NCBI GenBank assembly: GCA_002084705.1
Contig: NBLX01000009.1
Coordinates: 1 to 44,949 of the forward strand
Source: Desulfobacteraceae bacterium 4572_35.1
GTDB lineage: Bacteria > Desulfobacterota > Desulfuromonadia > Desulfuromonadales > Desulfuromonadaceae
Direction: 5' to 3'
DNA length: 44,949 bases
The position numbers and the translations under genes were made by a program. Position 1 is the stretch's first letter; every line of letters begins with the position of its first letter. A model generated the notes under the pieces. It had not been told where the DNA came from. It saw nothing but the letters and a program-made list of their open reading frames with translations, and made no database searches. This document shows positions 38,511 to 44,949 of this stretch, in pieces.

Positions 38511-38621
38511 ATTGCTAGTGAATAGATAATAGATAAATAAGAAACTTGGGATTTGACTTGTCGTGCCTTTTTGTTGCATTATGGGCAGAGATAAACTGCT
38601 TTCTAAAAGGGGAGGATAATC

Positions 38622-38938
38622 ATGTTAGATGCTATGGGAACTGCCGTTTCAGGTTTGCAGGCACAATCACTGAGGTTAAATTCAATAGCCAGACTGAGGG
38701 TTATGTTCCAACTGATGTGTCCATGTCTGAGAACAAGCAAGGTGGTGTCAGGTCTCAACTGCAAAAACCGGTGGCTGCACCCGGTGTAGCTCAGGATACT
38801 GAAACAAAACCGTCTCAGGTCGATTTGGCCAAAGAGATGACCCAGATGATGGAAACAAAAAATATGTATCTGGCAAACATGAAAACGGTGGATAGTTCAG
38901 AAAAAATGTTGGGACATTTGCTTGACACTGTAGGTTGA
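38622..38938 (+). pseudogene. Frameshifted flagellar basal-body rod-family protein
   Basis: MLDAMGTAVSGLQAQSLRLNSIA in one frame (from ATG 38622) continues as SQTEGYVPTDVSMSENKQGG...VDLAKEMTQMMETKNMYLANMKTVDSSEKMLGHLLDTVG* in another; switch at ATAGCCAG 38685-38692. Confidence 0.75.
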
Positions 38939-38950
38939 ACAACATAAATG

Positions 38951-39000
38951 ACAATAATAGAAATGGCTCGGTTTTCGAATGGAAACCGGGCCATTATTGT
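38951..39000 (+). terminator. Intrinsic terminator downstream of the flagellar-like pseudogene
   Basis: ACAATAAT...AATGGCTCGGTTTTC-GAAT-GGAAACCGGGCCATTATTGT, near-perfect long stem. Confidence 0.75.
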
Positions 39001-39252: not shown

Positions 39253-39339
39253 TCGCTCCTTATCTGGTATAACCATTATCCTTACTAATAATTGAAACTC
39301 CAGTGTTTGAAATACATATTATAGAGGAGAACAATACTG

Positions 39340-39594
39340 ATGACTTTGAATGAAAAAATTAAGCATATTTTGATTGAGGACCTGAACTTGGAAGATATTA
39401 CGGTTGAAGAGATTGGTGATGAAGAGCCTTTGTTTGGCGACGGTTTAGGTTTGGATTCTCTTGATGCTGTGGAGATGGCGGTAATTGTTCAAAAACATTT
39501 TGGTGTAGAAATTAAGGATATGGAAGAGGGACGACCGGCATTACAATCAGTGCAGTCTTTGGCTGATTTTATTACCGATAAACAGGGTAAATAG
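39340..39594 (+). CDS. Second acyl carrier protein (accessory cluster)
   Basis: MTLNEKIKHILIEDLNLEDITVEEIGDEEPLFGDGLGLDSLDAVEMAVIVQKHFGVEI; phosphopantetheine Ser in GLDSLD. Confidence 0.94.
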   Translation: MTLNEKIKHILIEDLNLEDITVEEIGDEEPLFGDGLGLDSLDAVEMAVIVQKHFGVEIKDMEEGRPALQSVQSLADFITDKQGK

Positions 39595-39597
39595 TTA

Positions 39598-40851
39598 ATG
39601 ACCAGTACTGTTGTCATAAACGGGATGGGTTGCGTCTGTGCTGCTGGTAATAATGTGGAGCAGATTGTAGATTCAATGCTCAGTGGTGAGCGTTATGTGT
39701 GCTCAGCCCCCCCCTTTGCCACAAGCCATCCCCATCCATATCCGGTTTTTAGCGTAACCTCCCCACTTCACGATTTTGGTTTACCTGCTGAGGATATTGT
39801 TTATCTGCGCACTGCTCTACTGGGGTTGAATGCCGCACAGCAGGCTCTCGATAATTCGTGTTGGGATATGAAGAGTCTGCGTTCCCTGAAAGTGGGGGTG
39901 TGCATTGGAACAACCGTTGGTAGTTCCATGGATGTTGAGAAGTTTTATGCAGATTATCGCAGCGGAAAAACTCCTGATATGCGTCCTGTCAACTGTTTCT
40001 ATGATGGCAACCCGGCAACAATAATCAGTAAATATTTTGCTTTTAATGGCCCATGCCAGACCATTGTCAATGCCTGTTCTTCCGGTACCGATGCCATAGG
40101 GACAGCAACCATGTGGCTACGTAGTGGCATGTGTGATGTGGTGCTGGCAGGCGGGGCCGATGAGTTGTGTCGGACCACCTATAATGGTTTTGCTGCCCTA
40201 CAGATAAGTTCGCCGGAGTTGTGTTCTCCGTTTAGTGTTGAGCGTAGTGGCTTGAACCTTGGCGAAGGTGCGGCAGTAATGGTGTTGGCGCGTGAAGAGA
40301 TCGCTGCTGAGTTCCAGGGAAAAGAATCGTTGGGATATATTCTTGGTTATGGAAGCGGCACTGATGCTTGGCACTTGACTGCTCCCCATCCTGAGGGGCG
40401 CGGACTGAAACAGGCACTTAATGAGGCTTTTAGCAATACTGTAAAAAATATTAACGATGATGCTGTTGATGATAACGGTGCCATCGTCGAGCGCCTTGCA
40501 TTTGTCAACACTCATGGCACCGGCACCAGAGATAATGATTGTGTCGAGGGTGCGGTGTTGTCACAGTTATTGCCTAAGGTATTGTTTCATTCAACTAAGG
40601 GATATACTGGGCATACTCTGGGTGCAGCTGGTGCTATAGAGGCCGTGCTAACTCTTGCCTTCTTACGCCGAGGACAAATTCCTGCCAGCGCCGGTTTTAG
40701 CACTATCGATCCAGAAATTGAACGGACGCCGGTTACAGAAAATACTACGATCAGTTCGGATATTGCCCTGTCGGAATCGTTGGCTTTTGGTGGTAATAAC
40801 GCTGCGTTGGTTATAAGTTTAAATAGATCTGCTTCTGGGGTGATCTCATGA
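39598..40851 (+). CDS. Beta-ketoacyl-ACP synthase, FabF-like, catalytic triad present
   Basis: VNACSSGTDAIG (Cys), VNTHGTGTRDND (His), KGYTGHTLGAAGAIEA (His). Confidence 0.94.
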   Translation: MTSTVVINGMGCVCAAGNNVEQIVDSMLSGERYVCSAPPFATSHPHPYPVFSVTSPLHDFGLPAEDIVYLRTALLGLNAAQQALDNSCWDMKSLRSLKVGVCIGTTVGSSMDVEKFYADYRSGKTPDMRPVNCFYDGNPATIISKYFAFNGPCQTIVNACSSGTDAIGTATMWLRSGMCDVVLAGGADELCRTTYNGFAALQISSPELCSPFSVERSGLNLGEGAAVMVLAREEIAAEFQGKESLGYILGYGSGTDAWHLTAPHPEGRGLKQALNEAFSNTVKNINDDAVDDNGAIVERLAFVNTHGTGTRDNDCVEGAVLSQLLPKVLFHSTKGYTGHTLGAAGAIEAVLTLAFLRRGQIPASAGFSTIDPEIERTPVTENTTISSDIALSESLAFGGNNAALVISLNRSASGVIS

Positions 40852-42014
40852 CGGCTGTGACCGATAAAATAGCCATTAGTGGAATTGGCTGCGTTGGTGC
40901 CTTCGGTTGTGGCACACAGGATTATGTCGCAGCCCTGAAACGTGGTTACGTGGACGCGCTGCCGCAGGAGAAAAATCATCCAGATGGGACCTCATTTCTG
41001 CCCGCATTGTTGGCTGATACTGCCCACCTGACCGATTATGTTCCACGACGAGCGTTACGGCGGATTGATCATTATGCACGCATGGCCTTGCTGGGTGGTT
41101 ATCTAGCTTTGGCTGATGTGGGGCTAAGCTCTGATCAGTGTGAAAAGCTTGGTGTTATTGTAGCCAGCGGTTATGGCGCGCTGACCACAACTTTTAACTT
41201 TCTCGATTCTGTGCTGGATGATGGCGATAGTTGTACCTCACCAACCAGTTTTTCCAATTCAGTTCATAATGTTGCCGCAGCCTACCTGTCGATGCAATTG
41301 CAGGCGTTTGGTCCAAGTTTAACCGTAAGCCAGTTTGAACTTTCGGTTTGCTCTGCTTTGCATACTGCGGTGTGTTGGTTGGAACAGGGGCGAGTTGATA
41401 AGGTTTTGATCGGCGGCGTTGATGAATACAATCCGGTTGTTAATGATTATTGCCGACAACGTTTTTCTGACCATGATGTGTCGATTGGAAATATTGATCC
41501 TTTTAATTTTAATTCTTGCAGTACTATAGCTGGAGAGGGTGCAGCGTTTTTATTGTTGACCAAAGGAGATAAATGGTGTGGCGGTGAATCGGAACAAGCG
41601 TGCCACGCTCCATATGCTTATGTTGGTGCCTTGTCTAGTGGTAATTTTTCCCGTCTGGATTGTAAGGATTATTCTCCTCAGGTGGGGCAACGTGGTTCTG
41701 ATCTGATGATAATTGGAGCAGATGGCCAGTGTGATAGTGGTAATTTATATTCACAGCTTCAATTTGATCGGCCAACGCTAAGTTGTAGTCCGTGCTATGG
41801 CGCTTTGCCGGTTGGGCAAGCGTTTGATTTGGTGGCGGCAGCGTTGATGTTACGTGAACAGAGTATGTTTGCTGTTAATAGATATCAAACTGGAACTAAT
41901 GGTAACAATGTGAACTTCGTACCGAAAATTGACACGATAACGTCATTGAAAATTGCACCAACAGGTCAGTTTGGCCAAATAGAACTTTGTGCCGGAGTGG
42001 ATAGAGATGCATAA
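40848..42014 (+). CDS. Beta-ketoacyl synthase-like / chain-length-factor-like protein lacking the KS triad
   Basis: Thiolase-fold KS signatures (VIVASGYGALTTTFNFLDSV, FSNSVHNVAAAYLSMQL, VLIGGVDE, GEGAAFLLL), but the ACSSG position reads SQFELSVCSAL and the NTHGT and GHT motifs are not recognisable; overlaps KS stop (ATGA). Confidence 0.87.
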   Translation: MTAVTDKIAISGIGCVGAFGCGTQDYVAALKRGYVDALPQEKNHPDGTSFLPALLADTAHLTDYVPRRALRRIDHYARMALLGGYLALADVGLSSDQCEKLGVIVASGYGALTTTFNFLDSVLDDGDSCTSPTSFSNSVHNVAAAYLSMQLQAFGPSLTVSQFELSVCSALHTAVCWLEQGRVDKVLIGGVDEYNPVVNDYCRQRFSDHDVSIGNIDPFNFNSCSTIAGEGAAFLLLTKGDKWCGGESEQACHAPYAYVGALSSGNFSRLDCKDYSPQVGQRGSDLMIIGADGQCDSGNLYSQLQFDRPTLSCSPCYGALPVGQAFDLVAAALMLREQSMFAVNRYQTGTNGNNVNFVPKIDTITSLKIAPTGQFGQIELCAGVDRDA

Positions 42015-42450
42015 GAAAGATGTTCCCCAGGATAGTGGAGTGTTAGAAAATAATCAGATGGTAAATTACGCTGTTGATGGCGATGGGAATTACTGCCTGG
42101 CAGCTACCACGGGTTGGGAGCCGGTCAATGCGGCTAACAGGATGGCTTGGGAAGAGATCCGTGAGCAATTATTTCAAGTGCGCCAGCAGGTTGAAAGCGG
42201 AAAATTGAGCAGCCTTGCCTATTATATGACCCGTGCGCAGATGGATGCTCCTCTGTTGGCTAGTTATGCTGGATTGGCACGCTGGAGGGTCCGCCGTCAT
42301 TTGCGCCCGGCTATTTTTGCCAAACTTGGATCTGAACAATTGCAGCGCTATGCCGAATTGTTTGGTGTGTTTGTTGAACAGCTTGTTCGATTGCCTGACA
42401 ATGATGAGTTGCCTGTGGCAGAATATCCAAACCCTGAGGATAATAAGTGA
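42007..42450 (+). CDS. Conserved-looking small protein of unknown function, possible helix-turn-helix segment
   Basis: YAVDGDGNYCLAATTGWEPVNAANRMAWEEIREQL..., PLLASYAGLARWRVRRHLRPAIFAKL; overlaps the stop of the KS-like gene. GTG 41989 is an alternative start. Confidence 0.75.
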   Translation: MHKKDVPQDSGVLENNQMVNYAVDGDGNYCLAATTGWEPVNAANRMAWEEIREQLFQVRQQVESGKLSSLAYYMTRAQMDAPLLASYAGLARWRVRRHLRPAIFAKLGSEQLQRYAELFGVFVEQLVRLPDNDELPVAEYPNPEDNK

Positions 42451-43451
42451 AAATTGCAAACTTTTCCCATCGTCAAGCTGCACACTGTGAAAGTGGAGCC
42501 ACTGCCAGTTTGATCAACTACGCAGGGACACATCTTTCAGAAGCGATGGTATTTGGTATTGGTGCCGGTCTCTTTTTCGGTTATGTCCCTTTTATTAAGG
42601 TGAATGGTTTCCCTCTGGTTACATATCGCTGCAAGCCGGGGGCAATTTTTGCTCGGGTAACCAAGAACCTCAATTGTGATGTGCACCAGAAAAGATACCG
42701 CAATCAGGCTCAGGCTATGGACGATCTAGATCTAAAGCTTGATCAGGGGATAGCGGTGGGGCTACAGACTAGCGTATTCTGGCTACCTTACATCCCCGCT
42801 GCCATGCGTTTCCATTTTAATGCTCATAATTTGGTCGTAATTGGCAAAGATGGCGATGAGTATATCATAAGTGATCCGGTTGCCCCTGATCTGGTGCGTT
42901 GCTCGGCGCAGGATTTATCTAAAGCGCGTTTTGCTCGCGGAGCGTTGGCACCCAAAGGGCGCAGTTATTATCTTACTTCAGTTCCGGCAGTTAAAAATCT
43001 TGAGGAGCCGATTGTGGCTGCTATCCGTAGTGCTTGTCGCGATATGTTGGCACCGATACCGATTGCCGGGGTACGAGGAATGCGGTTGATGGCTCGCAGC
43101 GTGAGTGGTTGGGAAACTAAATACGGCAAGCGTCGTGCCGGTTATTGTCTGGCTCAGTTGATACGGATGCAGGAGGAGATTGGCACTGGCGGCGCAGGCT
43201 TCCGCTTTATTTATGCTGCTTTTTTACAGGAGGCGGCTGAATATTTAGCAGTTTCGCAACTCGAAGAGCTGGCAGAAGAGTTGACAGCCATTGGCGATGA
43301 TTGGCGTGACTTTGCTTTGCAAGCCACCCGTTGTTGCAAGGGACATGCTGAGTGTTCTTATGCGGATCTAGCCACGATGATCAGTTCACAAGCGGATAAA
43401 GAGGAACGGTTTTTCCGTCATCTACAACAATTGACCAAAAAACTGGGATAA
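42447..43451 (+). CDS. BtrH N-terminal-domain (cysteine-peptidase-fold acyltransferase-like) protein
   Basis: AAHCESGATASLINYAGTHLSEAMVFGIGAGLFFGYVPF (Cys with ELSEA-G-G motif) and HFNAHNLVVIGKDGDEYIISDPV (His...Asp), as in BtrH-like proteins; GTGA overlap with upstream stop. Confidence 0.8.
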   Translation: MKIANFSHRQAAHCESGATASLINYAGTHLSEAMVFGIGAGLFFGYVPFIKVNGFPLVTYRCKPGAIFARVTKNLNCDVHQKRYRNQAQAMDDLDLKLDQGIAVGLQTSVFWLPYIPAAMRFHFNAHNLVVIGKDGDEYIISDPVAPDLVRCSAQDLSKARFARGALAPKGRSYYLTSVPAVKNLEEPIVAAIRSACRDMLAPIPIAGVRGMRLMARSVSGWETKYGKRRAGYCLAQLIRMQEEIGTGGAGFRFIYAAFLQEAAEYLAVSQLEELAEELTAIGDDWRDFALQATRCCKGHAECSYADLATMISSQADKEERFFRHLQQLTKKLG

Positions 43452-43452
43452 T

Positions 43453-44238
43453 GTGGTAGTGGGTGGGCAGATGGATGTAAAATTGACCGACACGATGTTA
43501 CTACAGGCAACAGGGTTGGTGAAGCGCTACCACAATCAGACTAATCCTGCTGTAGATGGGCTGGACTTGTGTCTTAAAAAGGGTGATCTCCTCGGTTTGC
43601 TTGGTCCAAATGGAGCAGGCAAGACTACAACTATCTCCATGTTGTCTACCATGTTGCGCCCTGATGCCGGCAGCGTTGAGATTGCTGGCGTTGACGCATT
43701 AAAAAATCCACGTTTGGTGCGGCCGCTAATCGGCTTTGTACCGCAAGAGCTGGCATTGTATCCCAGCCTAACTCTTAGAGAGAATTTGCAGTTCTGGGGG
43801 CGTTTGTATGGTTTGCGCGGGCAGTTGCTGTCTCAGCGGCTCAACGAGTGTGTTCAACTTGTCGCTTTGTCTGATTGCCTTGATAATCGTGTTGATACTT
43901 TTTCCGGCGGGATGAAGCGTCGTGCCAATCTGGCTGCTGGAATTATCCATAAACCACAGTTGCTGTTTCTTGATGAACCCACTGTTGGCATAGATCCACA
44001 GTCGCGTCACAATATCATCGACAAGTTGTACGAACTTAATTGTAACGGGATGACAATGGTTTATACCTCACACTATATGGAGGAGGTTGAGCGATTGTGC
44101 TCTGGAGTGGTGATTGTTGACGCCGGTAAGATTGTCTGTTCTGGCTCTGCGCAACAGCTGTTAGAAGATTCTGGCTGTGATGATCTTGAACAGCTGTTTT
44201 TGCAGTTAACTGGCAAACAATTACGTGATCAACTTTAG
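43453..44238 (+). CDS. ABC transporter ATP-binding protein (ABC-2 export type)
   Basis: LLGPNGAGKTTTISMLSTMLRPDAG (Walker A), FSGGMKRRANLAAGIIHKPQLLFLDEPTVGIDPQSR, YTSHYMEEVERLC. Confidence 0.95.
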   Translation: MVVGGQMDVKLTDTMLLQATGLVKRYHNQTNPAVDGLDLCLKKGDLLGLLGPNGAGKTTTISMLSTMLRPDAGSVEIAGVDALKNPRLVRPLIGFVPQELALYPSLTLRENLQFWGRLYGLRGQLLSQRLNECVQLVALSDCLDNRVDTFSGGMKRRANLAAGIIHKPQLLFLDEPTVGIDPQSRHNIIDKLYELNCNGMTMVYTSHYMEEVERLCSGVVIVDAGKIVCSGSAQQLLEDSGCDDLEQLFLQLTGKQLRDQL

Positions 44239-44253
44239 CATTTGGATCTATAT

Positions 44254-44949
44254 ATGTGTTTAATGTGGCAACAACTGGGCGCTTTTTTTCTGAAAGAGCT
44301 GCAATTGCTTCGCCGTGATCGCGGCGGTTTAATTGTGTTGTTTGTTATGCCGCTGGCGTTGGTGATAATTGTATCACTGGTGCAGAATAATATTCTCAAA
44401 GTTAGTGGTGCCAGAACCGTTAAGTTGTTGTTGATTGATAACGACAATGGCGAATTTGGGCAGCGATTATTGGAACAGTTGGATGAAAGTGGTTCCTTTC
44501 GAGTTACACGGCGAATATCTGATAGTTCACAAAGTCGGGCGCGACTTGAGGTGGGTGAGGGACAATGGCAGGTGGGGGTTTTGTTGCCTGAGGGTTTATC
44601 TCAACAATTGCGCCTAAATGCTATGGATTCTGTTTGCCAAGGATTTACATCTACACCTGATACAGCAGCTCAGCCCTTGACTGTAGAGTATTTTTTTGAT
44701 CCGGCTGTTCAGGGTGGTTTGAGGGGTGGGGTCAGTGGAATGCTACAACAACTTGTAGCCAGGCAGGTGTTGACGGCACAGATGGATGCATTTAAAAAAG
44801 TGTTGCCCGCTCAGATTGAACGTCAGATCTCTTCCGAACTTGGTCCCATGTTTTCTCAAGTGTTATCCCAGCATGAATTACAGTTTAATTTTCCTGATCC
44901 ACGTCAACCCCTTTTACAGGCAACACAAGTTAGAACACAGGACGGATAT
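44254..44949 (+). CDS. ABC-2 type transporter permease, C-terminus cut by window end
   Basis: Open frame to the end: MCLMWQQLGAFFLKELQLLRRDRGGLIVLFVMPLALVIIVSLVQNN...VKLLLIDNDNGEFGQRLLEQL...; TM plus extracytoplasmic domain as in ABC-2 permeases. Confidence 0.88.
   Translation, partial: MCLMWQQLGAFFLKELQLLRRDRGGLIVLFVMPLALVIIVSLVQNNILKVSGARTVKLLLIDNDNGEFGQRLLEQLDESGSFRVTRRISDSSQSRARLEVGEGQWQVGVLLPEGLSQQLRLNAMDSVCQGFTSTPDTAAQPLTVEYFFDPAVQGGLRGGVSGMLQQLVARQVLTAQMDAFKKVLPAQIERQISSELGPMFSQVLSQHELQFNFPDPRQPLLQATQVRTQDGY

Follow-up and report, generated by a model that had tools for sequence, protein, structure and literature searches.

Among the described systems, the arcuflavin dar locus of Azoarcus sp. 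BH72 stands closest to the genes considered here, a run of seven at the right-hand end of contig NBLX01000009.1 from Desulfobacteraceae bacterium 4572_35.1 (order Desulfuromonadales); this complete contig (C124), 44,949 nucleotides long, is referred to below as the window. The Azoarcus locus encodes a ketosynthase (KS), an acyl carrier protein (ACP), an ABC permease and ATPase, a BtrH-like protein, a small protein, DarB and DarA (PMC3949708). The BtrH-like protein is called DarE in that work; DarG and DarH follow NCBIfam nomenclature, and DarD of Azoarcus, the neighbor of DarE, probably corresponds to DarG. Related genes are found in the flx/dar clusters of Chitinophaga pinensis and Flavobacterium johnsoniae, flexirubin synthesis being initiated by FlxA and FlxY (PMC3992019). 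Finally, ladderane-like clusters are known from Geobacter, Pelobacter and Desulfotalea, where they are syntenic with the Kuenenia candidates (PMC2649909), and expressed 'ladderane' clusters occur in metagenomes of many non-anammox phyla, with their function left open (PMC9902471). In the literature covered, which is partial, no paper links ladderane-type clusters with those for flexirubins or dialkylresorcinols (DARs), and a paper on flavoaffinin concerns an unrelated type I polyketide synthase.

The window genes correspond to the last third of an approximately 30-kb gene set of relatives, and there is good reason to place them in an aryl-polyene/DAR pathway, an assignment that is much firmer than that of the acceptor of DarH. 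The kind of pathway is regarded as known because the NCBIfam models for DarG and DarH, both built on DAR/flexirubin clusters, are matched above cut-off. The likely overall explanation is a flexirubin-like pathway of which the window holds the right-hand, finishing and export end, with DarH joining the chain to the resorcinol. As judged from the genes, the product is probably an aryl-polyene pigment, yellow-orange in color and linked to a resorcinol, made in an anaerobic bacterium. A preliminary description of the same genes had treated the pathway as uncharacterized in kind, and on this point it is not supported: the same parts are found in the published Azoarcus locus (PMC3949708), and among 79 retrieved loci that share the DarG-DarH-ABC set, 77 also encode DarB. 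A match to an already characterized cluster, which that description itself had named as fatal to its proposal, has thus largely been found. The neighborhood comparison that it had suggested came out in its favor, in that the KS genes and the BtrH/ABC genes do co-occur elsewhere; the gene order of the window recurs in ten related genomes, far beyond chance. The outline of the mechanism therefore survives, the novelty in kind does not, and the proposed amine acceptor probably does not either.

With the dar/arc genes of Azoarcus sp. BH72 the present system shares the ACP, the KS, the ABC pair, the BtrH-like protein, the small protein and DarB (PMC3949708). In Azoarcus the aryl polyene forms an ester with a DAR, as is proposed for the present system, and LolA, an exporter and an acyltransferase are encoded in the polyene loci. 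Azoarcus employs DarA and starts from a chorismate-derived hydroxybenzoate. The present system lacks DarA and has an aromatic amino-acid lyase, a B12-radical S-adenosylmethionine (SAM) gene beside DarB, and ladderane-type radical-SAM genes. The likeness to the C. pinensis and F. johnsoniae clusters (PMC3992019) extends to a FlxA-like lyase, a FlxY-like ligase, a FlxB-like ketoreductase (KR), several KSs, LolA, the exporter and DarB, but the Flx models are matched under their cut-offs, DarA is again missing, and radical-SAM and phytoene-desaturase-like genes are added. The clusters of Kuenenia, Desulfotalea, Geobacter and Pelobacter (PMC2649909) have in common with this one the TIGR04072 protein, a phytoene-desaturase-like gene, a PaaK-type ligase, a glycosyltransferase, additional ACPs, and KS paralogues that lack the active-site Cys, for which Rhodopirellula has Asp or Glu; they differ in that the present cluster also contains an aromatic lyase as well as DarG, DarH and the ABC pair as a module, with DarB nearby. 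The combination of a TIGR04072 radical-SAM gene with KS and ACP genes, present here, is what genome-mining tools call 'ladderane-type'. The pigment type is known from other bacteria, and what would be new is the presence of ladderane-type radical enzymes and of a radical enzyme in place of DarA.

The full arrangement is seen in two genomes of the same genus (G002, G008) and two from other families of the order (G026, G032), in each of which a single collinear cluster spans about 30 kb. It begins with KR, KS, a phytoene-desaturase-like gene, a further KS, ACP, PlsC, a FlxY-like ligase, the lyase, LolA, MMPL, a DUF3261-like gene, a dehydratase, a thioesterase, and a KS with a partner resembling a chain-length factor (CLF). 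It then continues with three radical-SAM genes (rSAM1 to rSAM3), a glycosyltransferase, an acyltransferase (AT), ACP1, KS, CLF, DarG, DarH, the two ABC genes and ACP2. In G026 and G032, DarB and its radical-SAM gene come directly after the cluster and are encoded on the other strand; in G002, G006 and G008, DarB lies about 90-106 kb from the cluster.

In the window genome, the same genes are distributed over several contigs. The right end of the window shares a 39-bp overlap with contig C131, located within the permease open reading frame (ORF), and C131 (L141:1-971) provides the permease C-terminus and ACP2, with its DSL site; the joined ORF of 445 amino acids aligns with the intact permeases of relatives. 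Beyond ACP2 come Na/Pi cotransporter, IorA/B-like and PaaK-type genes, the same as are found 3' of the cluster in relatives, and on this basis the idea that the KR, dehydratase or ligase genes lie past position 44949 was rejected. The left end overlaps contig C155 by 104 bp inside purM. On C155 are found rSAM1, rSAM2 and rSAM3, all of the B12-radical-SAM type, a GT2-DUF2062 protein and the LipA-type AT; rSAM2 is a ladderane-type TIGR04072 protein (678 bits, cut-off 360), and the domains of the others were read on the orthologues in G006. AT and ACP1 are here separated by about 41 kb of ordinary chromosome (C155:5854 to window position 39339) containing purM, riboflavin genes, fatty-acid synthesis genes, homoserine dehydrogenase and others. 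As AT directly precedes ACP1 in relatives, the operon appears to have been split by a rearrangement in this genome, and insertions or breaks may recur at the AT/ACP1 junction. In G004, single genes occur within the cluster (L107:10709-13141 and L107:3410-4324), one of them, encoding a 576-residue ATPase-like protein, at this very junction; their functions are guessed from reading.

Most of the remaining pathway is carried by contig C89, which encodes a FlxB-like KR, a KS, the phytoene-desaturase-like protein, a second KS, an ACP, PlsC, a FlxY-like ligase (487.8 bits with the FlxY model, cut-off 520), an aromatic amino-acid lyase, a dehydratase that is weakly ApeP-like and under cut-off, a LolA2_flexi-like LolA and MMPL. 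The KR, KS, ACP, LolA and MMPL exporter of the aryl-polyene arm are thus all present, and they are collinear in relatives. The lyase has the MIO motif and scores 553.6 bits with Lyase_aromatic and 463 with the FlxA model (cut-off 700). The preliminary description had suggested that KR and dehydratase might lie downstream or be borrowed from primary fatty-acid synthesis; KR, ligase, lyase and LolA are indeed in the genome, but on C89. DarB is encoded on contig C134 (8074-9219, minus strand), where it scores 562.6 bits with the StlD/DarB subfamily model (cut-off 450) and 462.8 with the narrower resorcinol_DarB model (cut-off 550). A B12-radical-SAM gene lies 13 bp from it (the pair spanning L164:8074-10552); its closest models are HpnR and BchE, both far under their cut-offs. 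The genome therefore holds four B12-radical-SAM genes of this system, three on C155 and one beside DarB. Adjoining the pair is a thioesterase-like gene (L164:10655-11062), 26% identical to the cluster thioesterase, and relatives of it are also found near DarB in G002, G004, G006 and G008.

All seven ORFs of the preliminary description are present in the window on the plus strand (Table 1), and their tight junctions read as it had given them: ATGA at 40848, an ATG at 42007 that overlaps the CLF stop at 42012-42014, GTGA at 42447, and a 1-nt gap between 43451 and 43453. Orthologues of ACP1 occupy the same position in relatives and are 67-86% identical. The KS, with the motifs NACSS, NTHGT and GHTLG, has PRK09185 as its best NCBIfam model (277.5 bits, under the cut-off of 407). 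In the adjoining paralogue, Glu stands at the Cys position and both His are lost, orthologues having Glu or Asp there. The motif alignment agrees with the contrast already drawn between the two, and at the gene level they appear to be a KS/CLF pair with a dedicated ACP. That the set is not housekeeping is likewise upheld by the complete primary fatty-acid synthesis set about 10 kb upstream (plsX 24896, fabH 25977, fabD 26967, fabG-like 27951, acpP 28762, fabF 29207). The assignment of the ABC pair to export is also supported.

Table 1. Features at the right-hand end of the window
Feature	Position	Strand	Basis
Terminator-like 15-bp stem-loop upstream of ACP1	38962..38995	+	Consensus scan only
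ACP1, dedicated acyl carrier protein, DSL phosphopantetheine site, aryl-polyene type	39340..39594	+	PF00550 39.6 bits; PRK09184 73.2 bits (NCBIfam cut-off 70)
Ketosynthase (KS), intact Cys-His-His	39598..40851	+	Ketoacyl-synt N and C domains; motif alignment
CLF-like KS paralogue without catalytic residues	40848..42014	+	PF00109 66 bits (ketoacyl-synt N), no C-terminal domain match
DarG-family small protein	42007..42450	+	NCBIfam DarG_fam 147.6 bits (cut-off 70); flexirubin_DarG 140.1 (cut-off 170)
DarH, BtrH-type acyltransferase, predicted Cys14-His127-Asp143 triad	42447..43451	+	NCBIfam DarH_acyl 472 bits (cut-off 300)
ABC exporter ATPase, Walker A GPNGAGKT, signature FSGGM	43453..44238	+	ABC_tran 106 bits; motifs
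ABC-2 permease, N-terminal 236 aa	44242..44949 (contig end)	+	Pfam partial match; remainder on C131

The stem-loop, a candidate terminator, would set ACP1 apart from the homoserine dehydrogenase side. Just before it lies a 130-residue ORF (38546-38938) whose C-terminus resembles the C-terminal motif of flagellar rod proteins (NMxTVDxxEKMLGxLLD) and which has no NCBIfam match at E 1e-20. The window contains no Rfam or tRNA features. The C-terminal half of DarG is modelled by AlphaFold2 (AF2) as a small helical bundle resembling an XRE-type helix-turn-helix, from which DarG could, weakly, be imagined as a regulator; the fold search returned nothing significant, the best match in the PDB having an E value of 0.016. 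In G026 (L112:12666-13274) and G010 (L116:322-912), DarG is preceded by an outer-membrane-like ORF that by eye resembles lipid A deacylases of the PagL type and that is absent from the window cluster. Three DarH copies stand in a row in G272 (C112:7378-11422), and L023 has two DarG/DarH and two DarB copies; the DarG/DarH module thus seems to be duplicated in some lineages.

DarH consists of BtrH_N (2e-48) and DUF4872 (1e-56) domains (Pfam), and Cys14, His127 and Asp143 are invariant in the window protein and 41 homologues that are 44-55% identical to it. Its AF2 model (pLDDT 91) has a papain-like fold with a Cys-His-Asp arrangement, as expected of a BtrH-type enzyme. A PDB sequence search gave chance matches only; the fold search was informative and returned AziU3 (azinomycin), CtaG (closthioamide) and CcbD (celesticetin) at TM about 0.7. 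To these and to BtrH (butirosin), DarH is similar in fold at 12-18% identity. CtaG, solved with C11A, H128A and D144N variants, has the same triad spacing (C11/H128/D144 against C14/H127/D143), and CcbD has been solved in complex with a carrier-protein domain. Given the triad, the fold and the CcbD-carrier complex, the acyl transfer from an ACP proposed in the preliminary description is well supported. Its amine acceptor is probably less likely than a resorcinol hydroxyl, a phenol being the presumed acceptor in this setting; the case for the resorcinol hydroxyl is itself evenly balanced.

The strongest competitor keeps the pathway and changes the transfer: DarH may load the DarB substrate or pass the chain to an envelope amine, with the ester made by a PlsC- or LipA-type acyltransferase or another enzyme. 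The characterized fold relatives of DarH act on amines, and acyltransferases of both types lie within the cluster, though such enzymes also occur in clusters lacking the DAR half. Schoner et al. proposed the ligase-like FlxW for the joining step (PMC3992019). Against this possibility, which we consider the less probable one, DarH has a full triad and the fold of carrier-dependent acyltransferases, and it tracks DarB, as expected of an enzyme that joins two halves.

The co-occurrence on which the last point rests was determined for 40 genomes, the organism's own and 39 relatives, with splits given as both/first only/second only/neither; the Fisher tests ignore shared ancestry, and their p-values are descriptive. 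DarH and DarB are distributed 19/2/1/18 (6e-8), or 9/1/0/16 by genus (3e-6), and DarH and TIGR04072 20/1/4/15. Because three genomes (G019, G023, G033) have the lyase and TIGR04072 and lack both DarH and DarB, DarH appears to be tied to the resorcinol half.

Were the product a lipid or hydrocarbon of a ladderane-like or non-aromatic polyunsaturated kind, as has been proposed for the anammox and Desulfotalea clusters, and were it attached or exported by the Dar proteins with no aryl polyene involved, this would account for the high TIGR04072 score of rSAM2, the two further B12-radical-SAM genes and the phytoene-desaturase-like gene, features that were also pointed out in Kuenenia and Desulfotalea (PMC2649909). 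Such a product is nevertheless unlikely, since the central part of the cluster encodes an aromatic amino-acid lyase together with a FlxY-like ligase, TIGR04072 and the lyase are distributed 22/2/2/14, DarB and DarH belong to DAR pathways, and in Desulfotalea itself Rattray et al. detected no ladderanes (PMC2649909). DarH is again associated with TIGR04072 when 296 genomes from across the phylum are compared (17/4/55/220, 2e-8); the 55 genomes with TIGR04072-type proteins and no DarH, many of them near the cut-off, mean that TIGR04072 alone does not imply a DAR. BtrH works on an amine. The model of the preliminary description, in which a KS/CLF-made chain passes through the BtrH-like enzyme to an amine, unrelated to known pigments, draws on this fact and on ORFs that are as it described them, but gene content, collinearity and DarB co-occurrence point to an aryl-polyene/DAR cluster and leave it very improbable.

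Several observations weigh against the flexirubin-like assignment. DarA, the usual partner of DarB, was found in 0 of the 40 genomes. The FlxA, FlxB, FlxY and LolA2 models, though strongly matched, stay under their curated equivalog cut-offs, while a histidine ammonia-lyase model, also under cut-off, gives the lyase a slightly better score, so that an aryl starter is not certain. Two genomes (G030, G038) have DarH and no DarB that could be found. In relatives, DUF3261-like, dehydratase, thioesterase and second KS/CLF genes lie 5' of the radical-SAM genes, but searches of the window genome did not find them; with the genome at 87% completeness, and with C89 breaking off in MMPL and C155 starting in rSAM1, this is probably an assembly gap rather than a proven loss.

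The absence of DarA was checked with a positive control, the query recovering DarA from four distant genomes with E values of about 1e-75 or better, including Sulfurovum, Sulfurimonas and Gemmatimonadaceae; in the same control it found none in a Syntrophus genome and only a 30% match (E 1e-13) in the L022 genome. DarA was therefore rejected as the missing partner, and the window locus is not filed as a canonical DAR/flexirubin member because no DarA adjoins DarB. The 79 DarH loci, drawn from named genomes that are mostly Beta- and Gammaproteobacteria, include 72 with DarA. Five of the seven others begin no more than 1.6 kb from DarH, and their DarA may be on sequence outside the contig; the remaining two, L022 and L023, from Deltaproteobacteria and Syntrophus metagenome-assembled genomes, have a radical-SAM gene beside DarB. 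Within the window's order, a B12-radical-SAM gene directly adjoins DarB in all 20 DarB genomes (L142-L161), at the place that DarA takes in aerobes. By its position, this enzyme probably carries out the ring-oxidizing step that DarA performs elsewhere, the main alternative being a methyltransferase role. Such a replacement could be likened to BchE, the O2-independent counterpart of the oxidative cyclase. We put forward more tentatively the wider proposal that an O2-independent radical-SAM enzyme has replaced DarA and that the 'ladderane' clusters of the order, and possibly many others across the phylum, encode flexirubin-like pigment pathways of anaerobes.

In the proposed flexirubin-like pathway, the ammonia-lyase would deaminate an aromatic amino acid and the FlxY-like ligase would activate the product. 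The KS and KS/CLF pairs would extend this starter on the cluster ACPs, assisted by the KR and dehydratase, to give an ACP-bound aryl polyene. Separately, DarB would condense two fatty-acid intermediates to a resorcinol precursor, and the adjoining B12-radical-SAM enzyme would oxidize the ring in DarA's stead. DarH would then accept the ACP-bound chain on Cys14 and transfer it to a resorcinol hydroxyl, forming a flexirubin-type ester that the ABC pair would move across the inner membrane and LolA/MMPL would deliver to the envelope.

Linking one type of 'ladderane' cluster to an aryl-polyene/DAR product gives it a concrete and testable product class, and suggests what some of the non-anammox 'ladderane' clusters make. 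A radical-SAM route is indicated where the known pathway uses DarA, and a role is suggested for DarH in joining the two halves of the pigment. If true, flexirubin-like pigments, a marker of the Bacteroidetes, would extend to an anaerobic lineage.

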